From Desulfobacteraceae bacterium 4572_89 (GTDB lineage: Bacteria; Desulfobacterota; Desulfobacteria; Desulfobacterales; Desulfobacteraceae), in assembly GCA_002085465.1 (NCBI GenBank), contig NBML01000001.1:1-35569 (forward strand): a DNA stretch of 35,569 bases. Direction: 5' to 3'. Of the stretch, positions 6,698 to 35,444 are shown piece by piece. The translations under genes and the position numbers were made by a program. The notes under the pieces were generated by a model, which saw only the letters and a program-made list of their open reading frames with translations, was not told the DNA's origin and made no database searches. Position 1 is the stretch's first letter. Each line of letters opens with the position of its first letter.

Positions 6698-8230
6698 TTA
6701 ATATAAGTCCCCTACCTTGCCCTCCACTGCCCTGGCAATGCTGCCGTCCCGGAGCAATGCCTTGACCCTGGCAATATCATTTGATAAAAGCCTATCTTCC
6801 GTCATATAATCTACCTTGCTTCTTATGACCTCATAGGCGGCCATGGTCCCCTCCCCGGCCTTGAGGTTGGTGAAAAGATCAATGGCCTGGGCTCCGCAGA
6901 GCAGTTCAATGGCAATGACCTGTTCGGTATTTTCCACAATATCCCGGCATTTTCTGGCAGCAAAGGCTCCCATGGAAACATGATCTTCCTTATTGGCTGA
7001 TGTGGGAATTGAATCCACAGATGCTGGATGGGCAAGAACCTTGTTCTCAGAAACCAGGGATGCAGCAGCATACTGGGCTATCATAAAACCTGAATTAAGC
7101 CCCCCGTCTTCCACCAGGAATGCGGGCAGCCCTGACAGCTGCGGATTTACAAGTCTTTCAATACGACGTTCAGAAATATTGGCCAGCTCTGAAATGGCAA
7201 TACCGAGAAAATCACATGCCAATGCCAGGGGCTGCCCATGAAAATTGCCGCCGGAGAGAAACTCTTCAGATTCCGGGAAAATCAAAGGATTTTCCGTGGA
7301 AGAATTCATTTCAACCCCTATTACGGTCTCTACATAATGAAAGGCATCCCAGGATGCGCCGTGCACCTGGGGAGAACACCTGAGGGTATAGGCATCCTGA
7401 ACCCTGGAGCAGTCGTGGTGGGAGGAGATAATTTCAGAATTTTCCGTTATATTGAGCATGTTTTTGGCTGCCTTGATCTGGCCCATGTGGGGCCGGGCAT
7501 TATGAATCCTGGGATCAAAGGCCGCCCTGGTACCCATGAGGGTCTCAAGAGTCATGCTGGCGGCTATATCCGCATGTTTGCAAAGATTTAAGGCATCATG
7601 GAGGGCCAGGCAGCCCAGGGCAATCATTAACTGAGTCCCATTGATCAGTGCAAGGCCTTCCCCGGCTGACAGCTCCAGGGGAGGTATGGATTTTTTTTCC
7701 AGGGCTTTTGCCCCTGACATTCTCTGTCCGTCAACAAAGGCTTCCCCTTCACCGATTAGCACCAGGGCCAGATGGGCCATGGGCACCAGGTCACCGCTTG
7801 CTCCCACAGATCCCTTTGCCGGAACCACAGGTATAATACCTGTGTTTAAAAGCTGGGCCAGTTTTTCAATGGTTTCAAGGCAAAGCCCTGAATTACCCCG
7901 GCAAAAATCATTGATGCGAAGGGCCATCATGGCCTTGACTACATCATCGGCCAGGTGCTCCCCCATTCCTGCTGCATGGCTTAAAAGAATTTTTTTCTGA
8001 AGTTTTCTGGTATCATCAAAGGAGATAGTCACATCGGAAAGTGCTCCGAATCCAGTGGTTACACCGTATATTCTTTTTCCTTGCTTTACCCATTTGTCAA
8101 CCAGTTTTCTTGCTTTATGTATGCGGGATTTTGATTCATTGGAAATAGCAACTCTGGCGCCATGCCTTGCAATGTTTACAAGGTCTTCCAATTGAAATTC
8201 ATCACCGTTTAAAACTATCTGATCTGTCAT
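6698..8230 (-). CDS. hutH: Histidine ammonia-lyase
   Basis: A 510-residue cytoplasmic lyase that removes ammonia from L-histidine to give urocanate. The MIO cofactor triad Ala144-Ser145-Gly146 is in KGSVGASGDLVPM. The catalytic tyrosine lies in YGVTTGFGAL. The family block GFMIAQYAAASLVSENK is followed by SVDSIPTSANKEDHVSMG, which marks HutH rather than plant PAL. The start follows AAAAGGGGAG. It lies directly downstream of hutC, probably in one transcript, and is divergent from hutI. The length is normal and nothing is missing, which makes it a useful in-window reference for the broken MIO gene near 35 kb. Confidence 0.96.
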   Translation of the reverse strand: MTDQIVLNGDEFQLEDLVNIARHGARVAISNESKSRIHKARKLVDKWVKQGKRIYGVTTGFGALSDVTISFDDTRKLQKKILLSHAAGMGEHLADDVVKAMMALRINDFCRGNSGLCLETIEKLAQLLNTGIIPVVPAKGSVGASGDLVPMAHLALVLIGEGEAFVDGQRMSGAKALEKKSIPPLELSAGEGLALINGTQLMIALGCLALHDALNLCKHADIAASMTLETLMGTRAAFDPRIHNARPHMGQIKAAKNMLNITENSEIISSHHDCSRVQDAYTLRCSPQVHGASWDAFHYVETVIGVEMNSSTENPLIFPESEEFLSGGNFHGQPLALACDFLGIAISELANISERRIERLVNPQLSGLPAFLVEDGGLNSGFMIAQYAAASLVSENKVLAHPASVDSIPTSANKEDHVSMGAFAARKCRDIVENTEQVIAIELLCGAQAIDLFTNLKAGEGTMAAYEVIRSKVDYMTEDRLLSNDIARVKALLRDGSIARAVEGKVGDLY

Positions 8231-8232
8231 TT

Positions 8233-8262
8233 GTACTCCCCTTTTGGGTGTAATCCCCTTTT
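8233..8262 (-). repeat. Duplicated Shine-Dalgarno-like repeat before hutH
   Basis: On the minus strand, AAAAGGGGATTAC and AAAAGGGGAGTAC occur 17 bp apart with one mismatch. The copy next to hutH supplies its ribosome-binding site. The other lies just upstream in the hutC-hutH gap. Confidence 0.5.
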
Positions 8263-8267
8263 TGATA

Positions 8268-8284
8268 AGACTTTGTCAAAGTCT
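8268..8284. repeat. Palindrome at the hutC/hutH junction
   Basis: The perfect inverted repeat AGACTTTG-T-CAAAGTCT overlaps the hutC stop codon. It lacks the T-run of an intrinsic terminator on the minus strand. It could be a weak hairpin between the two genes or a protein site; it does not resemble the upstream hut operator. Confidence 0.45.
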
Positions 8285-9002
8285 ATTCCCTGTTAAATTT
8301 TCCCTTTAGTTTATATCGTGAGCCCGGAGAAATAATCCTGCTGTATGTGGCAACTTTGTCAAATGACCAGGTGCGCCGCGTAAGAGAAATGCAGGGTTCT
8401 TCCGGTAAAATTCCCAGGTGCCGTTGAATAATCTTATTTACCTTTATGGCCTCAATGATATGTTCGGCCTCCTGAATGGGTGCCACTTCAAGAAGATAAT
8501 CACTGGGTGTGATGATCATGAAATCCTGTTCCAGATATAACGGAGCCACGGTGGGATTAATATATCGCTCTGAATACTGGACGCCTATTCCCCGATCCCT
8601 GTGCAGAATAATGGAGTGAAAAACAGAATCTCCTTCAGCAAGATCCATTTTTCCGGCAATGTCAACTGATACTCTCTCTTCCCTGAGCAAGAGGACCTCG
8701 CAGGAATGCTGACCGTTCCAGTTTTTAATCTCCCTGGCAATGCTCTTTATCTCAAGCAGGGATGCTTCGGGCTTTGGTTTTGCCACAAAAGTGCCAACTC
8801 CCTGCACCCTTATAATCCTGCTTTCTTCGGCCAGTTCTTTCAAGGCCCGATTGGCAGTCATTCTGGAAGCATTAAATATCCTGGCAAGCTGGGTTTCCGA
8901 AGGGATCTTATCACCGGGTTTTAATTTCCCTGACTCAATTTCCCTGACAACGCTTGTTTTTATTTTTTCATATAATGCAAAGGGCTGATCTGAATTTTCC
9001 AC
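8283..9002 (-). CDS. hutC: HutC-type GntR-family regulator of histidine utilisation
   Basis: A 239-residue regulator. A winged helix-turn-helix (GDKIPSETQLARIFNASRMTANRALKELA) occupies about residues 30-60, followed by a UTRA ligand domain (about 85-235) with SERYINPTVAPLYLEQDF and EPCISLTRRTWS, both typical of HutC. In known systems urocanate binds the UTRA domain and relieves repression. The start is GTG with an AGGA site 6 bp upstream. It is followed by hutH and divergent from hutI, with a palindromic operator in the shared upstream region, which implies autoregulation. Confidence 0.92.
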   Translation of the reverse strand: MENSDQPFALYEKIKTSVVREIESGKLKPGDKIPSETQLARIFNASRMTANRALKELAEESRIIRVQGVGTFVAKPKPEASLLEIKSIAREIKNWNGQHSCEVLLLREERVSVDIAGKMDLAEGDSVFHSIILHRDRGIGVQYSERYINPTVAPLYLEQDFMIITPSDYLLEVAPIQEAEHIIEAIKVNKIIQRHLGILPEEPCISLTRRTWSFDKVATYSRIISPGSRYKLKGKFNRE

Positions 9003-9011
9003 TGTTTATCC

Positions 9012-9039
9012 TGTTTTGTTTATCTTGTTTTGTTTATCT
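9012..9039. repeat. 14-bp tandem repeat upstream of hutC
   Basis: TGTTTTGTTTATCT occurs twice head-to-tail, with a partial third copy. It lies in the hutC 5' leader, just ahead of the GTG start. It may be slippage or a leader element. Confidence 0.6.
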
Positions 9040-9098
9040 TGTTTAAATGTCTGGTTAAATCAATTTAAATGGATTTTTAAAACCTTGACTTCACTTCT

Positions 9099-9118
9099 AT
9101 ACTTGTATAGACAAGTAT
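9099..9118. promoter_or_regulatory. Probable HutC operator in the hutC-hutI divergent promoter
   Basis: A near-perfect 20-bp inverted repeat, ATACTTGT-ATAG-ACAAGTAT, with 8-bp arms. It lies between the divergent hutC and hutI genes and has the TTGTnnnnACAA core common to HutC/GntR operators. A perfect -10 hexamer TATAAT follows at 9121-9126 for the hutI direction, so a bound repressor would block the promoter. Confidence 0.75.
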
Positions 9119-9200
9119 TATATAATCCAAGGAAAAATGTCAACACCCTCCTGGCAAAATACGAAAAGGCCGAATATGAAAAGGTCAAAAGGAAAATAAA

Positions 9201-10493
9201 ATGAATTCAAATAATCTCCAGACAAAAGCCGAATTTCCCGGAACCTGGGACCTTTTGTTTATAAATTGCAACCTGGCCACCATGGCCCAGGGAAACTATA
9301 ATATAATTAAAAACGCAGCCCTTGGGGTATCCCAGCAGAAAATTTCCTGGGTGGGAAAACAGGAAGACCTGCCAGATGATCCTGAAAAACTTTGCACAAG
9401 GGTCATGGACTGCAGAAACAAATGGATAGTGCCGGGATTTGTGGACTGCCATACCCATCTGGTATGGGGAGGCTCCAGATCCAGAGAATTTGAGATGCGG
9501 CTTGGGGGTGCCAGTTATGAAGAGATTGCCAAAATGGGTGGAGGAATATTCTCAACAGTATCTGCAACCCGGGATGCCACAGAAAATAAATTATTTATCC
9601 AGGCATCCAAAAGAATGAAAAACTTTCTCCAACAGGGAGTTACCTGTCTTGAAATCAAATCAGGCTATGGGCTGGACCTTGAAACGGAATTAAAAATGCT
9701 TTCAATTATTGATCAATTGAATCAAGCATTCCCCCAGCATATTGAACCAACATTTTTAGGGGCCCATGCCCTGCCCCCGGAATTCAAGGATAATCCAGAA
9801 GACTATGTAGATCTTGTCATCAACACCATGCTGCCCAGAACAAAAGAACAGGGTATTGCAACTGCAGTGGATGTTTTCTGCGAACACATTGCCTTTTCCA
9901 GGGCCCAGACAAAAAAAATCTTTGGGGCGGCAACAAAACTGGGGTTCAGGGTCAAACTCCATGCAGAACAATTATCTGATTCTGACGGATCTGCCCTGGC
10001 TGCTGAATTTAATGCGCTCTCCTGTGACCATCTGGAATTTCTTTCCCCTTCTGGTGCAAAAAAAATGGCCGAAAAGAAGGTCTGCGCTGTTCTTCTGCCA
10101 GGAGCCTTTTATTTTTTAAAGGAGACCCAGAAACCTCCCGTTCATATATTAAGGGAATTGGGAATTCCCATGGCAGTTTCAACGGATCTCAACCCCGGGT
10201 CCAGCCCCATACACTCAATGAACATGATAATGAACATGGCCTGCCTGCTCTTTGATTTCACCTGTGAAGAGGCCCTGGCAGGAGTCACCCTCAACGGTGC
10301 AAAGGCCCTTGGTCTGAACAAGAGAAAAGGCAGCCTTGAAGTTGGCAAAGATGCTGATCTTGCGGTATGGGATATAAATACCCCGGCAGATCTATGCTAT
10401 CTTGTGGGCAGCAATCCTCTGGATATGGTTGTGGTAGAAGGAAAAATTGAGTATAAATCCATGGAAAATAAACTGGGGTATAAACTGGAATAA
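9201..10493 (+). CDS. hutI: Imidazolonepropionase
   Basis: A 430-residue amidohydrolase that opens 4-imidazolone-5-propionate to N-formimino-L-glutamate, the third step of histidine degradation. Metal ligands are in VDCHTHLVWGG near residue 82, LGAHALPPEF near 190, KLHAEQLSDSDG near 255 and STDLNPGSSP near 330. The substrate-binding EFEMRLGGASYEEI also fits HutI. The length is slightly above the usual 400-415. The ATG follows AGGAAAA. It is divergent from hutC-hutH across the operator. The second enzyme, urocanase (HutU), is not in this window. Confidence 0.95.
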   Translation: MNSNNLQTKAEFPGTWDLLFINCNLATMAQGNYNIIKNAALGVSQQKISWVGKQEDLPDDPEKLCTRVMDCRNKWIVPGFVDCHTHLVWGGSRSREFEMRLGGASYEEIAKMGGGIFSTVSATRDATENKLFIQASKRMKNFLQQGVTCLEIKSGYGLDLETELKMLSIIDQLNQAFPQHIEPTFLGAHALPPEFKDNPEDYVDLVINTMLPRTKEQGIATAVDVFCEHIAFSRAQTKKIFGAATKLGFRVKLHAEQLSDSDGSALAAEFNALSCDHLEFLSPSGAKKMAEKKVCAVLLPGAFYFLKETQKPPVHILRELGIPMAVSTDLNPGSSPIHSMNMIMNMACLLFDFTCEEALAGVTLNGAKALGLNKRKGSLEVGKDADLAVWDINTPADLCYLVGSNPLDMVVVEGKIEYKSMENKLGYKLE

Positions 10494-22987: not shown

Positions 22988-24037
22988 TTAAATTATATCT
23001 AAAAAACCTTTGGTGCTATCTCCCATGACCTCACCAATAATCCTTGCATTCATGCCTTTTTTTCCCAGCTGGACAACAAAGGCCTCAGCATCCTGTTTTT
23101 TCAGAGAAATCAGAAGCCCCCCGGAAGTCTGGGGATCAAATATTAGATCCAATAGTGCTCTGTCCATTGCCCGATCTACCTGGATAAGGTCCTTGAAAAA
23201 TGCTCTGTTTTTATGGGCCCCTGCCGGAACCATTCCCATGGAAGCAAACATCAATACATCTTCCAATAAAGGGACTTTGTCAGAATAAAGGGTTACATGT
23301 TTTAAAGATCCCTTTGCCATCTCCAGTATATGGCCGCCAAGGCCGAAACCTGTTACATCAGTACAGGCATGGACCTCAAAATCCTTCATGATCCGGGCTG
23401 CTGACCTGTTAAGCATGGACATGACAGCAACTGATTCCCGGATATTATTTTCCCCTGCCAGTTTTGCCTTGATGGCCGTTGACATGATTCCTGTTCCAAT
23501 GGGTTTGGTCAAAATAATGGCATCTCCCACCTGGGCCCGGCAATTGGTCAACACCTTTTCCGGGTGTACTATTCCTGTAACGGAAAGTCCGTATTTAAAT
23601 TCAGCGTCATCCACTGAATGCCCCCCCACAAGTATGGCACCGGACTCATTTATTTTATCCTGCCCACCTTTTAATGTCTGGGCAAGGATCTCTTCATCAA
23701 GATCACAGCTGGGAAAACAGACAATATTCATAGCCGTTAAAGGCTCTCCACCCATGGCATAGACATCACTCAGGGAATTAGCCGCAGCAATTTGACCAAA
23801 CTCATAGGGATCATCTGTGACCGGGGTCAGAAAATCCAGGGTCTGAATTAACGCTGTCTGGGAATTCAGCCGGAAAACCCCGGCATCATCCGGAGTATCA
23901 AGCCCCACAATCAAATCTGCATGGGATTTTACATCAAGACCGGAAACAATTCGATCCAGTGTCCCTGGATCCAGTTTGGCCGCTCACCCCGAGGCCTTTA
24001 CTTTCTGGGTTAAAAAAACTTTTTCCAATTTTTCCAT
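22988..24037 (-). CDS. selD: Selenide, water dikinase SelD, a selenoprotein (UGA = Sec18)
   Basis: Makes selenophosphate from selenide and ATP. The true start is ATG at 24037 with a GAGGA site. The frame crosses an in-frame TGA at 23984-23986 in the context KASG-U-AAKL, where SelD proteins carry the catalytic Cys or Sec. With it the protein has 349 residues, the normal SelD length; without it the protein would wrongly begin at MIVGLDTPDD. Further landmarks are QTLDFLTPVTDDPYEFGQIAAANSLSDVYAMGG, ILVGGHSVDD, CTDVTGFGLGGH and DPQTSGGLL. A hairpin lies 12 nt after the UGA. It lies 24 bp downstream of pgeF. The host must also have selA, selB and selC. Confidence 0.94.
23953..23986 (-). promoter_or_regulatory. 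Candidate bacterial SECIS element in selD
   Basis: Starting with the UGA codon on the minus strand, 12 nt are followed by a 7-bp stem GATCCAG / CTGGATC (23971-23953) with a 5-nt loop GGACA. Placement inside the coding region at this distance, and a G-rich apical loop, match known SelB-binding hairpins such as that of fdhF. Confidence 0.75.
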
Positions 24038-24061
24038 TATATTATCCTCAACATATTGTTC

Positions 24062-25342: not shown

Positions 25343-25900
25343 ATGACACAAATCAACTCTTTTCTCAAGGGCAAGCACATACTGGCCGTGGATGATGAAT
25401 TGGATGTGATTGAAACCATAGCGGAAATCCTTGAACCGGCAAAAATTGATTCAGCCCATGACTATGAAACTGCATCGGAAAAAATCCTTCAAATAAAATA
25501 TGACCTTGCCATACTTGATATCATGGGAGTTAATGGAATTAAGCTTCTGGAGGAATGTGTAAAGCAGAATATCCCGGCTGTGATGCTCACGGCCAATTCC
25601 CTGAATCCGGAATCCCTGATGGAGTCCATTAAAAAAGGTGCTATTTCCTATTTGTCCAAGGAACATTTAAGCGAATTGGATGTCCTGATCAATGAGCTTT
25701 TAAGTGCCAGGAATAAAGGGAAGCCCACATGGAAACTCTTATTTGAAAAGCTGGGCAGTCATTTTAACCTTCGCTTTGGCAACAATTGGAAGGAAAACGA
25801 CCAGGCATTCTGGGACGATTTTGAAAAAAACTGGGAGATCTCCAAGGGAATCCAGGAAAGACTGCTCCATGACCAGAACATTGTGGACAAGGGAATTTAA
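25343..25900 (+). CDS. Orphan response regulator, REC domain with short C-terminal extension
   Basis: A 185-residue protein. The receiver domain, residues 11-125, has the acidic pair D17-D18, the phospho-acceptor D59 (LAILDIMG), T83 and K106 (SYLSKEHL), so it should be phosphorylated. The last 60 residues (KPTWKLLFEKLG ... NNWKENDQAFWDDFEKNW) have no DNA-binding motif that I recognise. No histidine kinase adjoins. ATG with an AAGGAGAG site. It is convergent with dctM. Confidence 0.87.
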   Translation: MTQINSFLKGKHILAVDDELDVIETIAEILEPAKIDSAHDYETASEKILQIKYDLAILDIMGVNGIKLLEECVKQNIPAVMLTANSLNPESLMESIKKGAISYLSKEHLSELDVLINELLSARNKGKPTWKLLFEKLGSHFNLRFGNNWKENDQAFWDDFEKNWEISKGIQERLLHDQNIVDKGI

Positions 25901-25985: not shown

Positions 25986-27278
25986 TCAATGATATCCAAA
26001 CAGTTTGGGCAGAAACAGCACAAGACCTGGACAATAGGTCAAAAAGAAAAGAACCCCGATCTGGATGGCCAGAAAGGGCATTACCGCCCGGGACACATAA
26101 ATAATATCCCGCTTGGCCAGGGCCCCGGTGATAAAAAGGCTTACCCCCATTGGGGGTGTACAGTATCCTATGGCAAGGTTAACAGTCATGATCAGACCGA
26201 AATGCATGGGATCCACGTTAAAAGGTCCCAAAAGGGGTAGGAAAACCGGTCCAAGAATCAATGTGGCTGAAATAATATCCATGAACATGCCGATGATAAG
26301 CAGCAGGATATTCATGGCCAGTAAAAAGACAATAGGTGACTGGATGCTGGCCACCACCACTTCAGCCACACGGTTGGGTATATTCTCAAAGGTGAGGTAT
26401 CTGCCGAAACAGGTGGCAGATGCCACTATCAGCAGCAGGGTTGCAGAGGTTACAGCAGAACTTATGGTAACTGATTTAATATCTGCAAAATCCATGGATT
26501 TATAAATAAAATACTCGACAAAAAATGCATACACGCTTGCCACGACAGCAGCCTCGTTGGCTGTAAACATCCCTGAAAAGATACCGCCAAAGATGATCAC
26601 AATGAGCATTACCGCCCATATCCCCTCTTTAAGAATCTTAAACAGCTGTATGAAGTTCGGGACTGGGAGCCGCTGAATATCATCTCTTTTTCGATAGAGG
26701 ACAAAAGAATAGATACATACACATAAAATGATTAAAATCCCGGGAACAAATCCGGTTATAAACAAGCCTTCCAGGGATTCATTGCTGATCATTGAATAAA
26801 AAATCATACTGATACTGGGGGGAATAATAACACCCAGGTTGGGGGATGTTGTCATCAGTCCAAGGGTATAATCCTCATCATACCCGTTTTTAATCAGGGC
26901 CGGGATCATGAAGCCGCCAAGGGCCACCACCGTGGCAACGGTGGAGCCGGAAATAGCGCCAAACAGTCCACAGCCTATGACGCCGGCCATGCCCAGTCCT
27001 CCAGGCAGCCAGCTGACAAGGGCATTGGCCATATTCATCAGTTTCTCGACCATCTTTCCCTTGGCCATGATATTCCCGCAGAGAATAAAAAACAGGACTA
27101 CCACGAGGGAAAATTTGTCAAGACTTCGAAAAAGAGTCTGGGCCAGCAAAGCCAGGGGCATATCCTGGAAAACCACAAACCCGATGGTGGAAGTGAAAAA
27201 AAGACAAAGAAAGACCGGAACATAGGAGCTCATAAACCCCAGGAGAATACATAGAATAATCAGATCACTCATCTGCAT
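25986..27278 (-). CDS. dctM: TRAP transporter large membrane subunit DctM
   Basis: A 430-residue protein with about 12 membrane helices. Typical DctM segments are LPGGLGMAGVIGCGLFGAISGSTVATVVALG near 90-120, TTSPNLGVIIPPSISMIFY near 155 and IGYCTPPMGVSLFITGALA near 380. It forms the Na+-driven transport channel with DctQ. It is the last gene of a minus-strand series with dctP, dctQ, a CoA ligase and a beta-keto-acid cleavage enzyme, so the cargo is probably a carboxylate or amino acid handled by those enzymes. Confidence 0.94.
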   Translation of the reverse strand: MQMSDLIILCILLGFMSSYVPVFLCLFFTSTIGFVVFQDMPLALLAQTLFRSLDKFSLVVVLFFILCGNIMAKGKMVEKLMNMANALVSWLPGGLGMAGVIGCGLFGAISGSTVATVVALGGFMIPALIKNGYDEDYTLGLMTTSPNLGVIIPPSISMIFYSMISNESLEGLFITGFVPGILIILCVCIYSFVLYRKRDDIQRLPVPNFIQLFKILKEGIWAVMLIVIIFGGIFSGMFTANEAAVVASVYAFFVEYFIYKSMDFADIKSVTISSAVTSATLLLIVASATCFGRYLTFENIPNRVAEVVVASIQSPIVFLLAMNILLLIIGMFMDIISATLILGPVFLPLLGPFNVDPMHFGLIMTVNLAIGYCTPPMGVSLFITGALAKRDIIYVSRAVMPFLAIQIGVLFFLTYCPGLVLFLPKLFGYH

Positions 27279-27296
27279 GGAAAGAAGGCCCCTTTT

Positions 27297-27779
27297 TTAT
27301 CTGGTTTTAAAGTCTTGAATCATCACTTGAATCGTTCTGATACCCACCATCACACCCATGAGTGGCATGATGGCATATATAATCACAAGCGGTATCTGCA
27401 TGATAATTGTTTTTTGATTAGTAAGGTATTGCAGGTAGGTCATTTTGTACCCGTAATATACCATCATCCAGGCAAAGATGAGCATGAGAATACTGGTATA
27501 AAAGGTCAGGCCTGATTTAAGCTTTGGAAAAATCTGGACAACAGCATCAATACGGATCATGGCCCGTTGTTTAACTGCGACACTGGCTCCCACAAAGGTT
27601 GAGTAAATAATAACGATGCGGACCAGTTCCTCACTCCAGGCAAGGGTATAATTAAATCCGTACCGCAACACTACATTGGCAAACAGTGATAAAAGCGCTG
27701 CAATGACAATGATAAAAAGCGTCCACTCTTCAATCTGGGTTGTTATTGTATCCAGTTTTTTAAGTATTTTTCCAAGCAT
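27297..27779 (-). CDS. dctQ: TRAP transporter small membrane subunit DctQ
   Basis: About 160 residues and four helices, with the family pattern WTLFIIVIAALLSLFANVVLRYG and LAWSEELVRIVIIYSTFVGASVAVKQRAMIRID. The ATG at 27779 (MLGKIL) is preferred; a TTG six codons upstream at 27797 is also open. It lies 18 bp ahead of dctM. A strong hairpin separates it from dctP. Confidence 0.9.
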   Translation of the reverse strand: MLGKILKKLDTITTQIEEWTLFIIVIAALLSLFANVVLRYGFNYTLAWSEELVRIVIIYSTFVGASVAVKQRAMIRIDAVVQIFPKLKSGLTFYTSILMLIFAWMMVYYGYKMTYLQYLTNQKTIIMQIPLVIIYAIMPLMGVMVGIRTIQVMIQDFKTR

Positions 27780-27859
27780 AAACCAAGTCCCATTCAAAAT
27801 TAAATATTAAAGTGTGATCAACACCCATGCCCTGGCAGGCCCTATAAAAATGAAAGTTG

Positions 27860-27916
27860 TGAGTTTTGAGTTGTGAGAAAAAAATGCAACATTCTTTTCC
27901 CACGACTCAATACTCA
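27860..27916 (-). other. Intercistronic hairpin between dctP and dctQ
   Basis: Long imperfect inverted arms: TGAGTTTTGAGTTGTGAG with AAAA, against TTTTCCCACGACTCAATACTCA, pairing about 18 of 22 positions around a short loop. Placed just after the binding-protein gene, it could cause partial termination or protect the 3' end, giving more DctP than membrane subunits. Confidence 0.6.
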
Positions 27917-27947
27917 AGCCTCATTACTTTTTATATAACCAGTTTAT

Positions 27948-29024
27948 CTATTTCAAAAAATCTTGAACTTCTTTTAAGAAATTATCTGGCTGATATTTAT
28001 CACCGGGATATATCTTGTTAATTTCAGGCGCATATTTTTCATAGGTTCCCTGGCTCTGGTTTTTAAGGGTTGTCATATCCGCATCAGAAAGTTGAAAAAA
28101 TTCCACTCCGGCAGCTTTTGCCTTTTCAATATTGGTATTTTCTTCGGTCAAAGATTTAACCCTGGAGGCAGCACAGACATCGTGAACACTTGAGACAAAG
28201 GCATCTCTCAGATCAGCAGGAAGTTTTGCAAGCCATGCCTTATTAAAAATCCAGATAAAAAGACCCTGGGCATAATTAATCTGGGTAAAATACTTGGCAA
28301 CTTCAAATTTCTTGGTCACATTACATACGGTAAGGGTATGGTCAAGGCCTGTGATAACACCCTGTTTTAATGCAACAGGCACATCAGGCCACGGCATGGA
28401 AACAGGGTTAAATCCCCAGTTTCTATAGCTGAGCTGATTCACAGCTGCTTCTGCAATCCTGAATTTAACCTTTTTGGCATCTTCAATATTTCTGACCGGA
28501 ACGGTTGTTGCCCAGCCATAGTTTCCGTATCCCGTAATATCAAGTCCCGTGATTCCCTGATGATCCATGGCCATGAGAAAATGATTAAACAATTTTTTGT
28601 TGTTGATAAATTTTTCCAGTTTATCAAAGGAATTTACAAGAAAGGGAAGATTAACAACTCCAAACCTTGGCCCAAGGTTTGTGGATGCAACAGAGGACAC
28701 GCCCATTCCCTGAACAGCGCCCATTTGAACCATATTCAGGACTTCAACCTCTCCTCCCAGCATGGAATATGGCTTAAAATCCACATAAATTTTCCCGTTT
28801 GTTCTCTTCCAGACTTCATCGCGGATTTCAAAACCTGCCAGGGTCCCCATCAGGCCAGGGGTGGACACATTGGAAACAATGCATTTGTACTTGGCACCCT
28901 TGGGATCAAAATCAGGTTTCCATTTGTCAAGGGAGGGTTTTTTCTTTGCGAGAACAGGAGAAGTAAACATAAAGGCTCCAACCATTAAAACAAGCAGTAA
29001 TAATAAAAGTGTCCGAAGTTTCAT
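27948..29024 (-). CDS. dctP: TRAP transporter periplasmic substrate-binding protein DctP
   Basis: A 358-residue protein. The signal peptide is at 1-26, with cleavage near VLA-KK. The mature DctP fold contains FEIRDEVWKRTNGKIYVDFKP, NMVQMGAVQGMGVS, KVKFRIAEAAVNQLSYRNWGFNPVSMPWPDVPVALKQGVITGLDH. The arginine in FRIAEA matches the TRAP carboxylate-binding arginine. The start has AAAGGAA. The ligand is unknown; gene context favours an aromatic or beta-amino/keto acid. Confidence 0.92.
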   Translation of the reverse strand: MKLRTLLLLLLVLMVGAFMFTSPVLAKKKPSLDKWKPDFDPKGAKYKCIVSNVSTPGLMGTLAGFEIRDEVWKRTNGKIYVDFKPYSMLGGEVEVLNMVQMGAVQGMGVSSVASTNLGPRFGVVNLPFLVNSFDKLEKFINNKKLFNHFLMAMDHQGITGLDITGYGNYGWATTVPVRNIEDAKKVKFRIAEAAVNQLSYRNWGFNPVSMPWPDVPVALKQGVITGLDHTLTVCNVTKKFEVAKYFTQINYAQGLFIWIFNKAWLAKLPADLRDAFVSSVHDVCAASRVKSLTEENTNIEKAKAAGVEFFQLSDADMTTLKNQSQGTYEKYAPEINKIYPGDKYQPDNFLKEVQDFLK

Positions 29025-29134
29025 ACTTAAGTTCCTTTCCTTAAAAAATTATTATCATCTGCAGTGCCAGTAAAATTACCCTGACACTGGTTTCGACTTT
29101 TGAAAATTCATAAAATAAAGGCTGTTTCAATTGT

Positions 29135-30715
29135 TCAAACCAATGGTTTAAATGCCTCTTTCCTGCCCGTATACTGCTCCCGCAACTGGGGTTTCATCAG
29201 TTTTCCCGTTGGGTTGCGCGGCACCTGGTCAAAGGAAATTTTCCGGGGCACCTTGTACAGGGAAAGCTTTGATTTTGCAAATTCAATAACATCTTCTTCT
29301 GTTAATTTTCTGCCCTCTTTTACCTGAACCACGGCCAGAACAATCTCCACCAGCCGGTCATCTGGATATCCAATACATGCAACATCATCAATATCAGGAT
29401 GATCCATGAGCGCATCTTCAATTTCCACTGGAAAAATATTTTCACCGCCGCTGGTGATCATATCCTTCATGCGGTCCACTATATAAAAATACCCGTCTTT
29501 ATCTTTCTTTAATAAATCTCCCGTATAAAGCCAACCATTTTTTAGGGTTTCTTTGGTTTTTTCAGGATTTGAATAATACTCCCTCATCATACGCGGGGTT
29601 TTAAATACTAATTCTCCCACCTGATCTGGGCTCAGTTCTTTTCCCAGGGGGTCCACAATTTTTGCTTCAACACCAAAGGTGGGTTTTCCAATGGACCCAG
29701 GCTTGAGGAGGACATCTTCCGGATACAGATTAAAAGTCCCGCCGCCGCCGCCTTCGGTGATACCATAAATATTGGAAACAGAACAAGGCAATTTATCAAC
29801 CAGAAGCTTCATGATATCAAAGGGAACCGGCTGGGCCCCTATTTCCATATATTTCCAGGACGACAGATCATAGGTACTAAGATCTATGTCACCTTTTTCC
29901 ATGGCATTTAAAATTGCAATGCCAATGGGAACCACAAAAAGCATATCTGTGCATCTTTCAGCAGCAATGGCTTCAATTATCCATCTGGGATCTCTGAAAT
30001 CCCTGATAATGGTTCCGCAGGCTCCTGTGGCATAAAAGGGCGCCCATAAAAACATGGTGCCGGAATGATACAGAGGCAGGAAAATAAGATAATTGTCATC
30101 TTTTTGTACAAAATAAGTCATGCCATTGCCAATGGCTGTGCTGTTCAATGAAAAGTGAGTATGCAGAACAGGCTTTGGTTTTCCTGTGGTGCCCGAGGTA
30201 AACATCATGGCAAGGGAGTGGTCCCGGTCAACTTCAACAAGGCTGTCAGAGGTATCTGCATAATCGCAAATTGTCCTGAAATCAATATACTCATCAGGGA
30301 CATTTTCGCCAACACAGATATAGTGTTTAATGGTGGAAAGCTGATCCTGTACAGGCTGAACCACACCAAGGAATTCAGAACCAAAAATAAACACATCCGG
30401 ATTGCATACATCTGCCGCATACAGGATATCTGTGCTTTCAAATCTGAAATTCAAGGGCACGACCACAGCTCCCAGACGAATAATGGCATAATAGGTGATC
30501 ATCCATTCCAGGGAATTGTTCTGAAGATGCATGACAAAATCCCCATGTTTGACCTTTAATTCCTTTGCCAGATAATTTGCAGTCCGATTGATTTCGTCAT
30601 TGAATTCCTGCCATGTAAAGGAACGCCTGGCCCCGGTTGCCGGGATCCTTTCGATTAAGCAAACCTTATCAGGAATATGTCTTGCATGGATTGAAGCATA
30701 ACCAGAGTAGTTCAA
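29135..30715 (-). CDS. Acyl-CoA synthetase (AMP-forming)
   Basis: A 526-residue ANL-superfamily ligase. The AMP-binding P-loop is MMFTSGTTGKPKPVLHTH near 170, the A5 motif NIYGITEGGGGG near 310, WLYTGDLLKKDKDGYFYIVDRMKDMI near 395 and the catalytic lysine in NPTGKLMKPQ near 510. It activates a carboxylic acid to its CoA thioester via acyl-AMP. The start is TTG with a GGAGGAGAT site. It lies between dctP and the BKACE gene, so it may activate an imported acid or a free aromatic acid leaking from the pathway. Specificity cannot be read. Confidence 0.9.
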   Translation of the reverse strand: MNYSGYASIHARHIPDKVCLIERIPATGARRSFTWQEFNDEINRTANYLAKELKVKHGDFVMHLQNNSLEWMITYYAIIRLGAVVVPLNFRFESTDILYAADVCNPDVFIFGSEFLGVVQPVQDQLSTIKHYICVGENVPDEYIDFRTICDYADTSDSLVEVDRDHSLAMMFTSGTTGKPKPVLHTHFSLNSTAIGNGMTYFVQKDDNYLIFLPLYHSGTMFLWAPFYATGACGTIIRDFRDPRWIIEAIAAERCTDMLFVVPIGIAILNAMEKGDIDLSTYDLSSWKYMEIGAQPVPFDIMKLLVDKLPCSVSNIYGITEGGGGGTFNLYPEDVLLKPGSIGKPTFGVEAKIVDPLGKELSPDQVGELVFKTPRMMREYYSNPEKTKETLKNGWLYTGDLLKKDKDGYFYIVDRMKDMITSGGENIFPVEIEDALMDHPDIDDVACIGYPDDRLVEIVLAVVQVKEGRKLTEEDVIEFAKSKLSLYKVPRKISFDQVPRNPTGKLMKPQLREQYTGRKEAFKPLV

Positions 30716-30804
30716 CGATCTCCTCCTTATTATTTTATTATTTATACCCTATAAAACCCTTCTCCCTGTTGATTTTTTTACAGACACCAGGCTGCACTCT
30801 GGAG

Positions 30805-31740
30805 TCAAAAATTTACTTTGTCAAGCCCTTTAAGGCCAAGGATCTCTCTTGCTTCATCAGATGTGGCAGGCAAAAGGCTCATCTCCTTTGCCACGTTTTT
30901 AATCATGGTAACCTGGTCAGCACTGGCCTTGGCCATGACACCCTTGCCAGCATAAATGGAATCCTCAAGACCCACCCTGACATTCTGGGCACCCATGGCA
31001 ATTGCCGTGGTTGTTATGGGGATCTGGAACCTGCCCCCTGCTGCCACGGACCAGGTAAAATTTTCTTCTCCTAAAACTTCTTTGGCTTCATCATGGATAA
31101 GCACCAGGTGTTTCACAGAGGGTGTCATCCACCCCACCATGGGACCAAAAACAAATTGAAGGTGAACCGGTGTTTTCACAAGATTTTCTTCCATGAGCCA
31201 TTTTACATAGGAGACATGGCCCAGTTCATATATTTCAAATTCCGGTTTGGTATCTATTTCCAGAAATGTCTTGGCATAGATGATGTCATCATTAAATGTA
31301 GGGCGAAAGGTTACATTTTTACAAAGTTCCAGATACTCTTTTTCCCATTCATTTTTAAATTCTTTAAAACGTCCGGCAATCTGGAAAATACCGAAATTAA
31401 AGGGTGCAGGATCAAAGGAACACATTTCCGGTTCCAATTTTTTAATGGGTATGAGTTTTTCTTCTGTGGTCTGGTTCATTCCTCCGCCGGTTGTGGGCAG
31501 AAGAACAAGGTTGCACCGTTCCTTGATTTTGGTATGAACCTCCATGAATAGATCCGGGTCAGACACTGGCATGCCGTTCTCGGGATTCCGCACATGTATA
31601 TGGGCTATGGCTGCTCCGGCTTCCCATGCACGTACAGCATCCTCCACAATCTCATCCGGGGTTATGGGAAGATAATCACTCATGGTGGGGATATGTACGG
31701 AGCCTGTAATGGCTGCTGTAATAATGATTTTATTATCCAT
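30805..31740 (-). CDS. Beta-keto acid cleavage enzyme (BKACE, DUF849/Kce family)
   Basis: A 311-residue TIM-barrel zinc enzyme. Zinc histidines are in AHIHVRNPENG near 45-55 (the usual HVRDP is HVRNP here), and the zinc glutamate is in VRVGLEDSIYAGKG near 260. Known members, including 3-keto-5-aminohexanoate cleavage enzyme, react a beta-keto acid with acetyl-CoA to give acetoacetate and a new acyl-CoA. The start has AGGAG. Neighbouring aminotransferase and aromatic aminomutase genes suggest an aryl-beta-keto acid substrate (inference). Confidence 0.92.
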   Translation of the reverse strand: MDNKIIITAAITGSVHIPTMSDYLPITPDEIVEDAVRAWEAGAAIAHIHVRNPENGMPVSDPDLFMEVHTKIKERCNLVLLPTTGGGMNQTTEEKLIPIKKLEPEMCSFDPAPFNFGIFQIAGRFKEFKNEWEKEYLELCKNVTFRPTFNDDIIYAKTFLEIDTKPEFEIYELGHVSYVKWLMEENLVKTPVHLQFVFGPMVGWMTPSVKHLVLIHDEAKEVLGEENFTWSVAAGGRFQIPITTTAIAMGAQNVRVGLEDSIYAGKGVMAKASADQVTMIKNVAKEMSLLPATSDEAREILGLKGLDKVNF

Positions 31741-31803
31741 TATGGTATTCTCCTGTTAAAAAATTCATTCCTCATAAAAAATCCGACAGTTGTACTGGAA
31801 TTT

Positions 31804-32286
31804 TTATACCCTGTATTCTTCTTCCAGATCAAGCACAAACATCTTCTTGTCCTTGACATTATCAATGACAAAAGAGGATTTGATAATCTGTATCCCTTCT
31901 ATCTGGGTAAGTTTCATATTCATGAACTCACCATAAGCCTTAATATCCTTTGCAATAACCTTGAGCATAAAATCATTGGCACCGGCAATCTGGTAACATT
32001 CCACTATCTCATCAATCTCAAGAAACCGCTCTTTAATGCAGGCCACGGAAGACAGGCTGCTCAAACTTAATGAAATACTCACCAGGGCCATTATGGAAAA
32101 CCCTATTTTTTCAGGGTCCACCACAGCCGTAAAATGGGAAATCACCCCTGCATTTTCCAGACGTTTCACCCTCTCATGGGTTGCAGGAGCTGATATACCC
32201 ACAATTTTTGACAGCTTGGAATTTGTTGTTTTTCCGTTTTCCTGAAGCGTTTTTAAAATCATTTTATCGATTCTATCCAGAACCAT
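31804..32286 (-). CDS. Lrp/AsnC-family transcriptional regulator
   Basis: A 160-residue protein with an N-terminal helix-turn-helix (LDRIDKMILKTLQENGKTTNSKLSKIVGISAPATHERVKRLENAGVI) and a C-terminal RAM ligand domain (about 65-155). These respond to amino acids. Its place inside a putative amino-acid degradation operon makes it the likely local sensor. AT-rich inverted repeats upstream of the aminomutase are possible targets. The ATG has an AAAGGG site. Confidence 0.93.
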   Translation of the reverse strand: MVLDRIDKMILKTLQENGKTTNSKLSKIVGISAPATHERVKRLENAGVISHFTAVVDPEKIGFSIMALVSISLSLSSLSSVACIKERFLEIDEIVECYQIAGANDFMLKVIAKDIKAYGEFMNMKLTQIEGIQIIKSSFVIDNVKDKKMFVLDLEEEYRV

Positions 32287-32357
32287 TTATGCCCTTTTTA
32301 AACAGATTAAATTCAATTTTAAATATAATAAGTACTCACCATCATGGATAGCAAAAA

Positions 32358-33491
32358 TTATAAAAGTAAATGGTTATATTTTTCTTCAATCAATGGCAAC
32401 AACTCTTTTAAGGTCTGGTCTATTTTATCCACAACCCAGTCGATTTCATCCCGGGTCATCACCGTTGAAAGGATGAACAAGCCCCGGGGAATGGTAAACA
32501 CTCCTTTATTCAGCAAAGAGAGATGCAGGAGAGTATGCAGCTCCTCTTCAGATTCCAGAACCTGCTCTGCACGGTTAATGGGCTGGTTGTAAAAATGCAG
32601 ATTCAGCAGGGACCCGATCTGGTTAGACTGGATATTTAATCCATTTGCCTTGAAGCTTTTCAAAAGCCCTGCCTGGAACTGATTTCCCAACTGGTTGATG
32701 GCACTCACTGCAGCGTCGTCAAATTTGGATAGTGCTGCAAAGCCAGCCTGCATAACTGTTTCATATCCATTAAATGTACCGGAATGGTACAAGGGGGTTT
32801 TTGTATTTTCATGGCAGAAAATATTCATTATCTCTTTTTTCCCGCCAAAAATACCAATGGGAAGACCGCCCCCCACAACTTTACCAACGGTTGTAATATC
32901 CGGTACCACATTAAACAGTTTCTGGCATCCGCCTGTATCCACCCGAAAGGAAAAAATTTCATCAAATATCAATAAAACATCATGGGCCTGAGTTATTTTC
33001 CGGGCCCTTTGAAGATATCCCTCTTCAGGAAGTACGATCCCCCCTGCCCCCAGAAAGGGCTCCATAATAACGGCAGCAAGTTCGGAAGCATTCTCCTGGA
33101 CTACTTTTTCAAGGGCATCCCCATCGTTAAAGGGCACCTCTATCATATCCTGGGTCATGCCAGCGGGAATTCCAGCTGTAATCACATTTTTTTTGGTGGA
33201 GGCTGCCACGCAGTCATGGGTGCCGTGGAAGCCTCCTGTCATTTTCAAAATCTTGTCCCGCCCGGTAAATGCCCTTGCCGTTCTCATGGCAAAAAGGGTG
33301 GCTTCGGTTCCTGAGTTCAGAAACCTTACCCTGTCAAACCCCGGCACCCGTTCACAGAGTAACTTTGCGAGATTATACTGCCCATCTGTGGGGGTTGAAT
33401 ACTGGGAACCCTTTTCAATGCCTTCCTGAACCGCCTTTACCACATCCGGATCTCCATGGCCGTGGACAAGGGCACCATAGGCATTGGTCAC
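32358..33491 (-). CDS. Class-III aminotransferase (GSA-aminomutase-like), 5' end damaged
   Basis: 377 residues from GTG at 33491. PLP lysine K204 in TTVGKVVGGG, FDEIF with D177, and GTFNGYETVMQAG place it near glutamate-1-semialdehyde aminomutase and the beta-phenylalanine aminotransferases of Variovorax and Mesorhizobium. The frame stays open upstream and encodes clear family sequence (YPIHISHGKGAHVYTHEGHR, then LFDVT) back to about 33590. No ATG, GTG or TTG precedes it, and TGA at 33597-33599 blocks the frame. The start used here therefore cuts conserved sequence and lacks a ribosome site. It probably transfers the amino group of a beta-amino acid if intact. Confidence 0.75.
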   Translation of the reverse strand: MTNAYGALVHGHGDPDVVKAVQEGIEKGSQYSTPTDGQYNLAKLLCERVPGFDRVRFLNSGTEATLFAMRTARAFTGRDKILKMTGGFHGTHDCVAASTKKNVITAGIPAGMTQDMIEVPFNDGDALEKVVQENASELAAVIMEPFLGAGGIVLPEEGYLQRARKITQAHDVLLIFDEIFSFRVDTGGCQKLFNVVPDITTVGKVVGGGLPIGIFGGKKEIMNIFCHENTKTPLYHSGTFNGYETVMQAGFAALSKFDDAAVSAINQLGNQFQAGLLKSFKANGLNIQSNQIGSLLNLHFYNQPINRAEQVLESEEELHTLLHLSLLNKGVFTIPRGLFILSTVMTRDEIDWVVDKIDQTLKELLPLIEEKYNHLLL

Positions 33492-33576
33492 ATCAAAAAG
33501 CCTGTGGCCTTCATGGGTATAGACATGAGCACCCTTTCCATGGGAAATGTGAATGGGATAAGTTTTTCTAAGTTTT

Positions 33577-35017
33577 TTATTCCTTTGTATGAACGATCAA
33601 AAGTTCGCCCAGGGCATCTTCAACCCTTTTCACAAACTCTCCAGATTCGATCCTGGCCTTAAGTTCTTCCATGTGGTCAATATAGACCATGTCATAACCC
33701 ATGTAGGGAATGGTTTCCCTTACTGCATCATACATGATTTTACCGGCAGGACTCAATTTTTCAATACCACGGAGGTCTGCTGCCTGGGCAGCCGCCCATG
33801 AGACCCATGCGAACCCCGGTATCTTCCTTACAAAGGAATGGAGGCAGGCCGGTACTGTGGGCAGAATCCATAAATCTGTCAATTCTCCGGTCACTGACAA
33901 CCCCCAGGTTCACCATGGAAATACCCAGGCAATCCATTACAAAGGATATGGGCTGGCCATGGAAATGACCGTTATGGATAAAGGTATTATATTCGGTAAA
34001 GATCAAGGGATTGTCATTGCTGGAATTAAGTTCCCGCAACAGGACTTCCCGGGCATGTTGTACTGCTTCCTTGGTGGGGCCGACAAATTGAGGGGTACAC
34101 CGGATGGAATAAGCATCTTCCACAGGTATATCTGCCACTTTAATCCCTTCATGCCTTTTCAGTACTGACTGGAGTTCCAGGGAAAGTTCCTGCTCATCAA
34201 TTGCCATCTTGGAACCTTCCAGAAGTTTGGTCAGGTTCGTAGCAGTGGCATACTGTCCAGGATGATATTTTTGTTCATGGACCCTTAGATCAAAGGGGTT
34301 GGTCCTGCCCATGAGGGTCTCAATGGCAAAAGCCGCAATAATATCTGAATTTTTCAATGTATTTGTGGCTTCGTCAATAACTGTACAGGCAAGTCCAACC
34401 ATACCGGAAGTGCCGTTAATCAGGGACAAACCTTCTTTTGCATTAAGATACATGAGCTCAACCCCGGCCTTTTCCATGGCTTCTTTACCCGGCATTACCT
34501 CGTTGTTTACCCTTGCCTTCCATTCTCCAAAGGCAACGCTGGCAATACACCCAAGGGGTCCAAGATCACCACTTGTGCCCAGGGATCCTTTTCTGGGAAC
34601 CAGGGGAAAAACATGCTTATTGATCATGTCCACATAGATCCTGAGATTTTTTTCCTTAATTCCTGAATAGCCCCTACAAAGGGAATTAGCCCTTGCGATC
34701 ATAAACTTCCTAACAAGGGTATCTTCAAAGGGTTTGCCCACCTGGGTGGTAATGCTTCTGACAAGGTTTTTCTGGAAATCATTGTCCCTGTCCTTGGGCA
34801 GGAGATGATCCACAAGTCCGCCGCAACTGGTATTCACGCCATAGATGCACCTTTCTTCATTGGCCCATTCATCCACAAGTTTTCTACAGTCCCGGATTTT
34901 CGGCCAGTTTTTTTCATCTATCTCAACTTCCATGGATAGATTATTTCCTGCTTCCATCAACTCTTCAATGGTCATTGAATATCCATCAAGAATAAGTTTA
35001 TTTCCCTTTATCGGCAT
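33577..35017 (-). pseudogene. MIO-type aromatic aminomutase (PaPAM/AdmH-like), internal deletion and frameshift
   Basis: The first piece (35017-33761 frame) starts after AGGAGG and carries the catalytic tyrosine Y59 in YGVNTSCGG and the MIO triad T148-S149-G150. A Thr-Ser-Gly triad, together with LNSSNDNP and HNGHFHGQ, is typical of the Pantoea AdmH phenylalanine aminomutase/EncP group rather than HutH. At about 33780-33795 the frame changes: GVRMGLMGG is followed, in another frame, by AAAQAADLRG and a normal C-terminus ending at 33577. Compared with hutH in this window, about 60 residues are missing. As sequenced, no full enzyme can be made. Confidence 0.85.
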
Positions 35018-35146: not shown

Positions 35147-35175
35147 CAAAAAAATCAAATTTGAATTTTTTTGTC
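35147..35175. promoter_or_regulatory. AT-rich inverted repeat, possible Lrp-type site
   Basis: ACAAAAAAA and TTTTTTTGT arms surround CAAATTTG, nearly symmetric with one bulged base. It is about 130 bp upstream of the aminomutase start. Lrp-family proteins favour such AT-rich palindromes, and an Lrp gene is in the operon. Chance in AT-rich DNA is also possible. Confidence 0.35.
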
Positions 35176-35408
35176 AAGCACTATTTTTAATTTTATAAAG
35201 GAAAATCTGAATTTTATAGAACTATTGAAACCAAAATCAGGAATATTTATTTATTTTATAAACTTTTTTCATGGTCATGCCTTATAAAACCATATCAAAT
35301 TTTTTTAAAATATTTCCTTGGATTTTGTATAATTATTGTAAAATTTTCAGTCAATCCCATAAATGCTGTCTTGGTGTTGCACGATCCTTTGTAAGGGTAA
35401 TAAAACAA

Positions 35409-35444
35409 AAATGGCCTGGTAATCGTTAGATCACCAGGCCATTT
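35409..35444 (-). terminator. Intrinsic terminator after the beta-barrel gene
   Basis: A perfect 12-bp stem AAATGGCCTGGT / ACCAGGCCATTT with a 12-nt loop, followed on the minus strand by TTTTGTTTTA. It separates the partial gene at the window end from the aminomutase operon. Confidence 0.9.

Follow-up and report, generated by a model that had tools for sequence, protein, structure and literature searches.

Described routes to benzoyl-CoA and the operon under study

Anaerobic degradation of phenylalanine has been described for Thauera and Aromatoleum as a route that leads over phenylpyruvate, phenylacetyl-CoA and phenylglyoxylate to benzoyl-CoA (PMC5109826, PMC9765128). In D. multivorans, the step from phenylglyoxylate to benzoyl-CoA has been called unclear, and the PadB and PadEFGHI proteins of denitrifiers were not required, likewise in D. 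toluolica Tol2 (PMC5109826). The path of sulfate reducers from phenylalanine-type compounds to benzoyl-CoA is thus partly open. We analyzed a stretch of 35,569 nt from Desulfobacteraceae bacterium 4572_89 (contig NBML01000001.1 of GCA_002085465.1, positions 1-35,569; hereafter the window) that carries an operon for an MIO-type enzyme (MIO), a class-III aminotransferase (AT) and a beta-keto acid cleavage enzyme (BKACE). Judging from its genes, this is probably an oxygen-free phenylalanine catabolic operon of the Desulfobacteraceae that ends at benzoyl-CoA. It would offer a different answer, one that can be tested in a cultivated strain with a sequenced genome.

The proposed route would share its start and end compounds with the phenylpyruvate route of Thauera and Aromatoleum. 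However, that route relies on alpha-deamination and decarboxylations and includes no beta-amino acid. With the acetophenone pathway of Aromatoleum (Apc, benzoylacetate-CoA ligase, thiolase), it would share the conversion of benzoylacetate to benzoyl-CoA; there, benzoylacetate arises from acetophenone and is converted by CoA ligation and an unknown thiolase rather than by a BKACE (PMC4729919). We found no paper describing an MIO/AT/BKACE route in the literature searched, most subscription papers, including the 2013 Tol2 genome paper, being outside reach.

The operon consists of eight genes in a row on the minus strand (25986-35017), all at the place, on the strand and in the family that the preliminary description of the window had given them:

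33577..35017, minus strand, MIO-type aromatic 2,3-aminomutase/ammonia-lyase homologue (MIO; PF00221, 421 bits for a 418-aa piece), broken
32358..33567, minus strand, class-III aminotransferase (AT) of the beta-phenylalanine transaminase/GSAM-like group (PF00202, 180 bits)
31804..32286, minus strand, Lrp/AsnC-family regulator (Lrp; domain match)
30805..31740, minus strand, beta-keto acid cleavage enzyme (BKACE; DUF849; PF05853, 291 bits)
29135..30715, minus strand, AMP-forming acyl/aryl-CoA ligase (LIG; AMP-binding domain)
27948..29024, minus strand, TRAP solute-binding protein DctP (domain match)
27297..27797, minus strand, TRAP small permease DctQ (domain match)
25986..27278, minus strand, TRAP large permease DctM (domain match)

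The gene set stands, but the first two genes are broken in this copy. MIO is divided into a piece at 33761-35017 and a tail in another frame at 33577-33900 (as a gene piece, 33577 to about 33792), and AT is open at 32358-33491, its N-terminal part missing. Compared to five relatives, 182 bp are missing within MIO near 33790, as are 130-146 bp spanning the boundary between MIO and AT, AT start included. These two deletions in neighboring genes (33560-33800) may stem from an assembly error or from decay; all six remaining genes are open. In most relatives, MIO has a length of about 540 aa and AT one of 444-454 aa; some are likewise split or cut, for example the AT of locus L002 and the MIO of L037.

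All eight genes are intact in D. toluolica Tol2 (L088, genome G072; PHENYLALANINE), which carries the same operon, with a TRAP transporter that fits the published phenylalanine/phenylacetate system. In that genome, MIO is named 'Pal: predicted phenylalanine ammonia' and AT 'Pat: predicted pheny' (both names incomplete), pointing to a lyase and a phenylalanine-type transaminase, whereas BKACE is left as 'Conserved uncharacterized protein, DUF849'. The combination can thus no longer be regarded as an unknown locus: the locus is known and was read differently.

MIO, AT and BKACE form a conserved unit

Genome contigs were scanned with the MIO protein as query, which yielded 49 loci, L001-L041 at 80-93% identity and L042-L049 at 36-40%. 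The titles of the 41 close loci name Desulfobacula, Desulfotignum, Desulfospira, Desulfobacteraceae or Desulfobacterales in 35 cases, Delta- or Proteobacteria in five and Halieaceae in one. Neighbors were scored with the window proteins as queries, and a locus was counted for a gene only if its sequence reaches that gene. AT followed MIO in 38/38 informative close loci, the other three ending within MIO; in L039, the two are separated by an EamA transporter gene. BKACE came next, either behind Lrp or immediately behind AT, in 34 of the 35 informative loci (six end earlier), the sole exception being L036 from a Halieaceae metagenome-assembled genome. Lrp followed AT in 32/35 and was absent from L025, L027 and L039. 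LIG stood after BKACE in 29 of the 30 loci with room, L039 being the exception, and in L035, whose contig ends in BKACE, it was found upstream of MIO instead. Among the 27 loci with room past LIG, 23 had the orthologous TRAP system and four (L009, L011, L032, L033) another one. At the eight distant MIO loci, neither AT nor BKACE had a match at E<=1e-8.

The same association was seen across 86 genomes that make up the family of Desulfospira genome G017 (counts not corrected for kinship). MIO (E<=1e-150) was detected in 43 and BKACE (E<=1e-120) in 48 of them; 42 had both and 37 neither (Fisher p 1.4e-16, uncorrected for relatedness). In the sole genome with MIO only (G084, L038), the contig stops inside MIO. 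The six with BKACE only have contigs that end inside MIO (G061, G062, G066, G071), start at AT (G067) or end in Lrp (G085). Since all seven are truncated contigs, no genome has one gene and demonstrably lacks the other. Order-wide, 39/389 genomes had an MIO match at E<=1e-130, all of them within the family set; the profile was built from the clade of the operon MIO and distant cases could escape it. The co-occurrence of MIO, AT and BKACE in other genomes, proposed as a check in the preliminary description, is thus borne out.

The Halieaceae locus (L036 531-6511) holds MIO-AT-Lrp on a contig with NirJ and cytochrome d1 (denitrification-type) genes. The place of BKACE is taken by a PaaK-like ligase (197 bits with the PaaK model, below cut-off) and a 329-aa protein that had no Pfam match at E<=1e-5. 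By analogy to Aromatoleum, this ligase possibly represents a solution via benzoylacetyl-CoA and a thiolase; a binning error is also possible. The TRAP genes beside the operon vary as well: a non-orthologous system (DctM about 28% identical) replaces the usual one or adjoins MIO (L039 6570-9780, and the four loci with another TRAP system given above).

Active-site residues of the three enzymes

The best PDB match of MIO was AdmH (486 bits), ahead of tyrosine aminomutase (359) and HAL (273). AdmH (PaPAM, the andrimid beta-phenylalanine aminomutase) serves antibiotic biosynthesis, in contrast to the catabolic setting of the operon MIO. The triad motif GTSGDL was present in 40/42 MIO proteins, the other two missing this region because of truncated contigs, and the catalytic Tyr loop YGVNT in 39/42, the misses being truncated or shortened. 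The TSG triad and the compared Tyr, Arg, Met and Phe positions are those of AdmH, with nearly all positions in agreement; such a comparison cannot tell a mutase from a lyase. At the position of His 93 in the tyrosine aminomutase chain, MIO has Val or Ile. TIGR04475 (aminomutase) was the best NCBIfam model for MIO, by 163-192 bits, while the hutH model gave 451-463 bits for the relatives and did not reach its cut-off of 539.

A second MIO lyase is encoded in the window: a true hutH at 6698-8230 (706 bits, over cut-off), part of a histidine utilization region (6698-10493) with, by eye, a GntR/HutC-like regulator and an imidazolonepropionase-like open reading frame. Given this separate hutH and the score of MIO under the hutH cut-off, a role of MIO in histidine utilization was rejected.

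For AT, the best PDB match was 6K8H (298 bits), followed by two GSAMs and the Variovorax beta-phenylalanine aminotransferase 4ao9 (260 bits). AT shares its fold class and carboxylate arginines with the beta-phenylalanine transaminases (4ao9, the beta-transaminase 2yku and the Sphaerobacter enzyme StoTA, 6K8H), which are its best PDB matches besides GSAM. R41 and R398 of 4ao9, which we take to be its carboxylate-binding arginines, align with Arg in 39/39 and 37/39 ATs; one of the two proteins without the R398 equivalent is frame-split and the other truncated. Neither position is Arg in three GSAM alignments among the matches listed, and the intact Tol2 AT scored 350 bits with TIGR00713 (hemL, GSAM), below the cut-off of 527. 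The R41 position corresponds to R36 of StoTA, an enzyme active on beta-phenylalanine in which this residue is proposed to bind the substrate carboxyl (PMC10589169). The likeness of AT to beta-phenylalanine aminotransferases, noted earlier, is therefore supported by both its best structural match and its two conserved arginines.

BKACE scored 291 bits with PF05853, over the gathering score of 24.8. In catalytic residues and overall length it agrees with its family, which includes the TAL enzyme of the phloroglucinol pathway and BKACE15 of Paracoccus (8RIO). H47, H49, E169, R255, E259 and D260 are conserved and align with H49, H51, E171, R254, E258 and D259 of BKACE15, the metal ligands of which are presumably the His-x-His and the Glu. 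Two stretches differ from BKACE15, DPAPFN in place of NMGTMN and GPMVGWM in place of GLMGGIG, each in 33/35 proteins; the misses are truncated proteins, except that of L003. Both stretches may line the substrate pocket. E171 and R254 of BKACE15 have been discussed as catalytic base (PMC11961710), and TAL likewise takes part in the anaerobic degradation of aromatics (PMC10470551). In a survey of the family, benzoylacetate is among the BKACE substrates in Table 7, under group G3 in its flattened form (PMC4922564); this is the precedent for the benzoylacetate activity predicted here.

The operon is associated with benzoyl-CoA degradation

Among 31 cluster-bearing genomes, 24 had a TIGR03200 (BamA) match that exceeded the cut-off; another four gave partial matches (99-350 bits) and three only weak ones (67-73 bits). 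None of the 14 control genomes exceeded it, and 11 of them had weak matches. In the 86-genome set, BamA was found at E<=1e-100 in 34/43 genomes with MIO, compared to 6/43 without (p 1.3e-9). These counts cover genomes other than that of the window.

The best evidence for a link comes from L039. There, a thiolase, TIGR03201 (6-hydroxycyclohexenecarbonyl-CoA dehydrogenase; 482 bits, cut-off 339) and TIGR03200 (476 bits, cut-off 464) are encoded just upstream of TRAP, MIO, AT and BKACE, and the 1.9-Mb, likely incomplete assembly has no ligase match above 41% identity (E<=1e-100). This arrangement therefore suggests that MIO-AT-BKACE is the core of the operon, with a product that enters the benzoyl-CoA path.

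The ligase and the transporter represent a separable module

DctM of Tol2 shares 90% identity with a protein of genome G097, encoded at 2.78 Mb, that fits the published DctM4. In the same gene order, DctQ (74%), DctP (80%), LIG (73%) and the response regulator (60% identity) are also found in G097, two histidine kinases lying between TRAP and the response regulator. DctM9Q9P9 of Tol2 has been described as 'supposedly phenylalanine/phenylacetate importing', and D. multivorans produces the orthologous TRAP system on phenylacetate and phenylpyruvate (PMC5109826). Because position, identities and neighbors agree with that article, we firmly infer that G097 is D. multivorans and that the operon TRAP is DctM9Q9P9.

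MIO, AT and BKACE had no match in 40 kb of G097, and no MIO match was found genome-wide at E<=1e-130. LIG, TRAP and the regulator are thus syntenic in D. multivorans without the three core enzymes and would therefore be a module of their own for aromatic acids. The preliminary description had placed ligase and transporter in one operon-like set with the core; they do adjoin it, but they are separable and not clearly part of the reaction chain. Against the PDB, LIG and DctP gave only generic matches. For LIG, we propose an aromatic acid as substrate, for example cinnamate, phenylacetate or benzoylacetate.

The surroundings of this module in G097 (L124-L125) form a phenylacetate/phenylpyruvate cluster with 2-hydroxyacyl-CoA dehydratase- and activase-type genes, a 3-hydroxyacyl-CoA dehydrogenase and a thiolase. 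This cluster would also fit a conversion of phenyllactyl-CoA via cinnamoyl-CoA to benzoyl-CoA by beta-oxidation, unlike the published reading via phenylglyoxylate (PMC5109826).

Proposed route and alternatives

From gene content, conservation, active-site residues and genome association, we infer the reactions, substrates and regulation proposed here. MIO would shift the amino group of L-phenylalanine to give beta-phenylalanine, which AT would transaminate to benzoylacetate (3-oxo-3-phenylpropanoate) with a 2-oxo acid as acceptor. BKACE would then convert benzoylacetate and acetyl-CoA to benzoyl-CoA and acetoacetate, ahead of decarboxylation to acetophenone, and benzoyl-CoA would join the Bam ring-degradation pathway. 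LIG and TRAP would serve as an uptake and activation module for aromatic acids, which probably also salvages cinnamate freed by MIO. AdmH makes (S)-beta-phenylalanine, and this product together with (S)-selective transamination would fit the route stereochemically. Such transamination of beta-phenylalanine has been described, and in Paraburkholderia the beta-keto acid is lost by decarboxylation to acetophenone (PMC6150868). In contrast, the operon BKACE, being next to AT, would capture the beta-keto acid and avoid this loss.

On balance, we lean towards a beta-route that would dispense with ATP-dependent CoA ligation, phenylpyruvate and decarboxylation, that would use a catabolic AdmH-type aminomutase and a BKACE for aryl beta-keto acids, and that would be widespread in the Desulfobacteraceae. 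If so, aminomutases and beta-amino acids would take part in anaerobic carbon turnover, beyond antibiotic biosynthesis, BKACE would gain another role in anaerobic aromatic metabolism, and the reading of the Pal and Pat genes in D. toluolica Tol2 would change.

Several observations weigh against this route. It is difficult to distinguish MIO mutases from lyases, and JGI names among the 120 homologues listed include histidine ammonia-lyase 11 times and aminomutase three times. With TIGR04475, five intact relatives scored 649-671 bits (663-671 in four Desulfobacteraceae-type proteins, 649 in L036) and did not reach the curated cut-off of 800. The AdmH-type aminomutase of the preliminary description is thus upheld as the nearest relative, by AdmH and by TIGR04475; because of the missed cut-off, its assignment as a mutase rather than a lyase is provisional. 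AT is over no NCBIfam cut-off, its best models being GSAM (among the matches listed). BKACE is below all four NCBIfam BKACE cut-offs, for example with 341-350 bits for NF053538 (3,5-dioxohexanoate BKACE; cut-off 430), and benzoylacetate is therefore a putative substrate. The intact BKACE of L003 (10960-11895) has FNAATYN at the otherwise conserved DPAPFN stretch. At E<=1e-100, BamA had no match in 12 of the 49 genomes that bear the cluster, although three of these hold fragments of 99-213 bits. An AtoD-type acetoacetate:CoA transferase (TIGR02429, E<=1e-40) was found in only 4/86 genomes and not in Tol2; recycling of acetoacetate by such an enzyme was therefore rejected. Finally, an indolepyruvate:ferredoxin oxidoreductase has been postulated for phenylpyruvate degradation in Tol2, where the ior and ato proteins are phenylalanine/phenylacetate-specific (PMC5109826); this specificity favors a route over phenylpyruvate, either alongside the beta-route or instead of it. 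CoA-transferase (PF01144) has six matches in three places of Tol2, one of which lies some 72 kb away from the operon, next to an indolepyruvate:ferredoxin oxidoreductase. This site is probably the published iorA2B2-atoAD locus and speaks neither for nor against the beta-route.

Four other explanations were considered. MIO might free both cinnamate and beta-phenylalanine, with AT and BKACE taking the latter, LIG forming cinnamoyl-CoA that beta-oxidation turns into benzoyl-CoA, and both branches mattering. The position of LIG after BKACE in nearly all loci with room (29/30) is in favor of this, as is the D. multivorans orthologue of LIG, which lies with TRAP near thiolase, 3-hydroxyacyl-CoA dehydrogenase and 2-hydroxyacyl-CoA dehydratase-type genes, as in phenyllactate/cinnamate breakdown. 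We nevertheless hold two branches to be unlikely: the cluster includes no beta-oxidation gene, and L039 has MIO-AT-BKACE beside bam genes without a ligase (best match 41% in the 1.9-Mb assembly). The names Pal and Pat would fit a lyase and an alpha-transaminase, that is, a phenylalanine ammonia-lyase and an alpha-phenylalanine aminotransferase as separate entries to cinnamate and phenylpyruvate, with BKACE serving otherwise. Besides the incomplete source names in D. toluolica, the phenylalanine/phenylacetate-specific ior and ato proteins of Tol2 (PMC5109826) point this way. However, AT has the residues of a beta-amino-acid transaminase and such an enzyme as best PDB match, and BKACE accompanies MIO and AT in 34/35 loci and is kept in L039, which lacks ligase and Lrp; we regard this reading as highly doubtful.

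The same chemistry might also act on tyrosine or another aromatic amino acid and yield 4-hydroxybenzoyl-CoA or another acyl-CoA, since the ring substituent is suggested by residues and the substrates of BKACE and AT are predicted. The Val/Ile at the His 93 position of tyrosine aminomutase and the association with BamA of the benzoyl-CoA path make this quite improbable, if slightly less so than the Pal/Pat reading; the BamA argument against tyrosine is tempered, as 4-hydroxybenzoyl-CoA also leads to the benzoyl-CoA path. Least probable of the four is the uptake and degradation of external beta-phenylalanine or beta-tyrosine, with MIO reversed or handling the other enantiomer. MIO aminomutases are reversible, the cluster includes TRAP genes, and an aminomutase has been considered for (R)-beta-phenylalanine (PMC6150868). 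Yet the D. multivorans TRAP orthologue is formed on phenylacetate and phenylpyruvate and belongs to a module without MIO and AT (PMC5109826), and the type of TRAP varies (another system in 4/27 loci with room) while MIO-AT-BKACE does not.

We therefore return to the beta-route. The chain from alpha-phenylalanine over beta-phenylalanine and benzoylacetate to benzoyl-CoA, which the preliminary description had taken to close without gaps, is backed by gene order, the residues of the three enzymes, the BamA association and L039; LIG and TRAP are not clearly part of it, and MIO falls short of the TIGR04475 cut-off.

Regulation and further features of the window

The position of Lrp inside the operon suggests amino-acid sensing, with either the amino acid itself or a product as the likely ligand. 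A CTTGACA sequence that is identical in 15/15 aligned relatives lies about 155 bp ahead of MIO in the window. The features flanking the operon are as follows:

35172..35177, minus strand, TTGACA inside CTTGACA, candidate -35 box of the operon promoter (alignment)
35409..35444, minus strand, terminator-like hairpin with a T-rich tail, probably marking where the preceding gene ends
25343..25900, plus strand, response regulator, convergent neighbor of the operon (family in 22/41 close loci)

Scans of the region were near chance compared to shuffled sequences, both for promoters (28 vs 21.8, sd 4.9) and for terminators (10 vs 10.6, sd 3.5). Elsewhere in the window, a selD-like gene on the minus strand (22988-24061) contains an in-frame TGA (ASG*AAK), as do selenocysteine-containing selenophosphate synthases.

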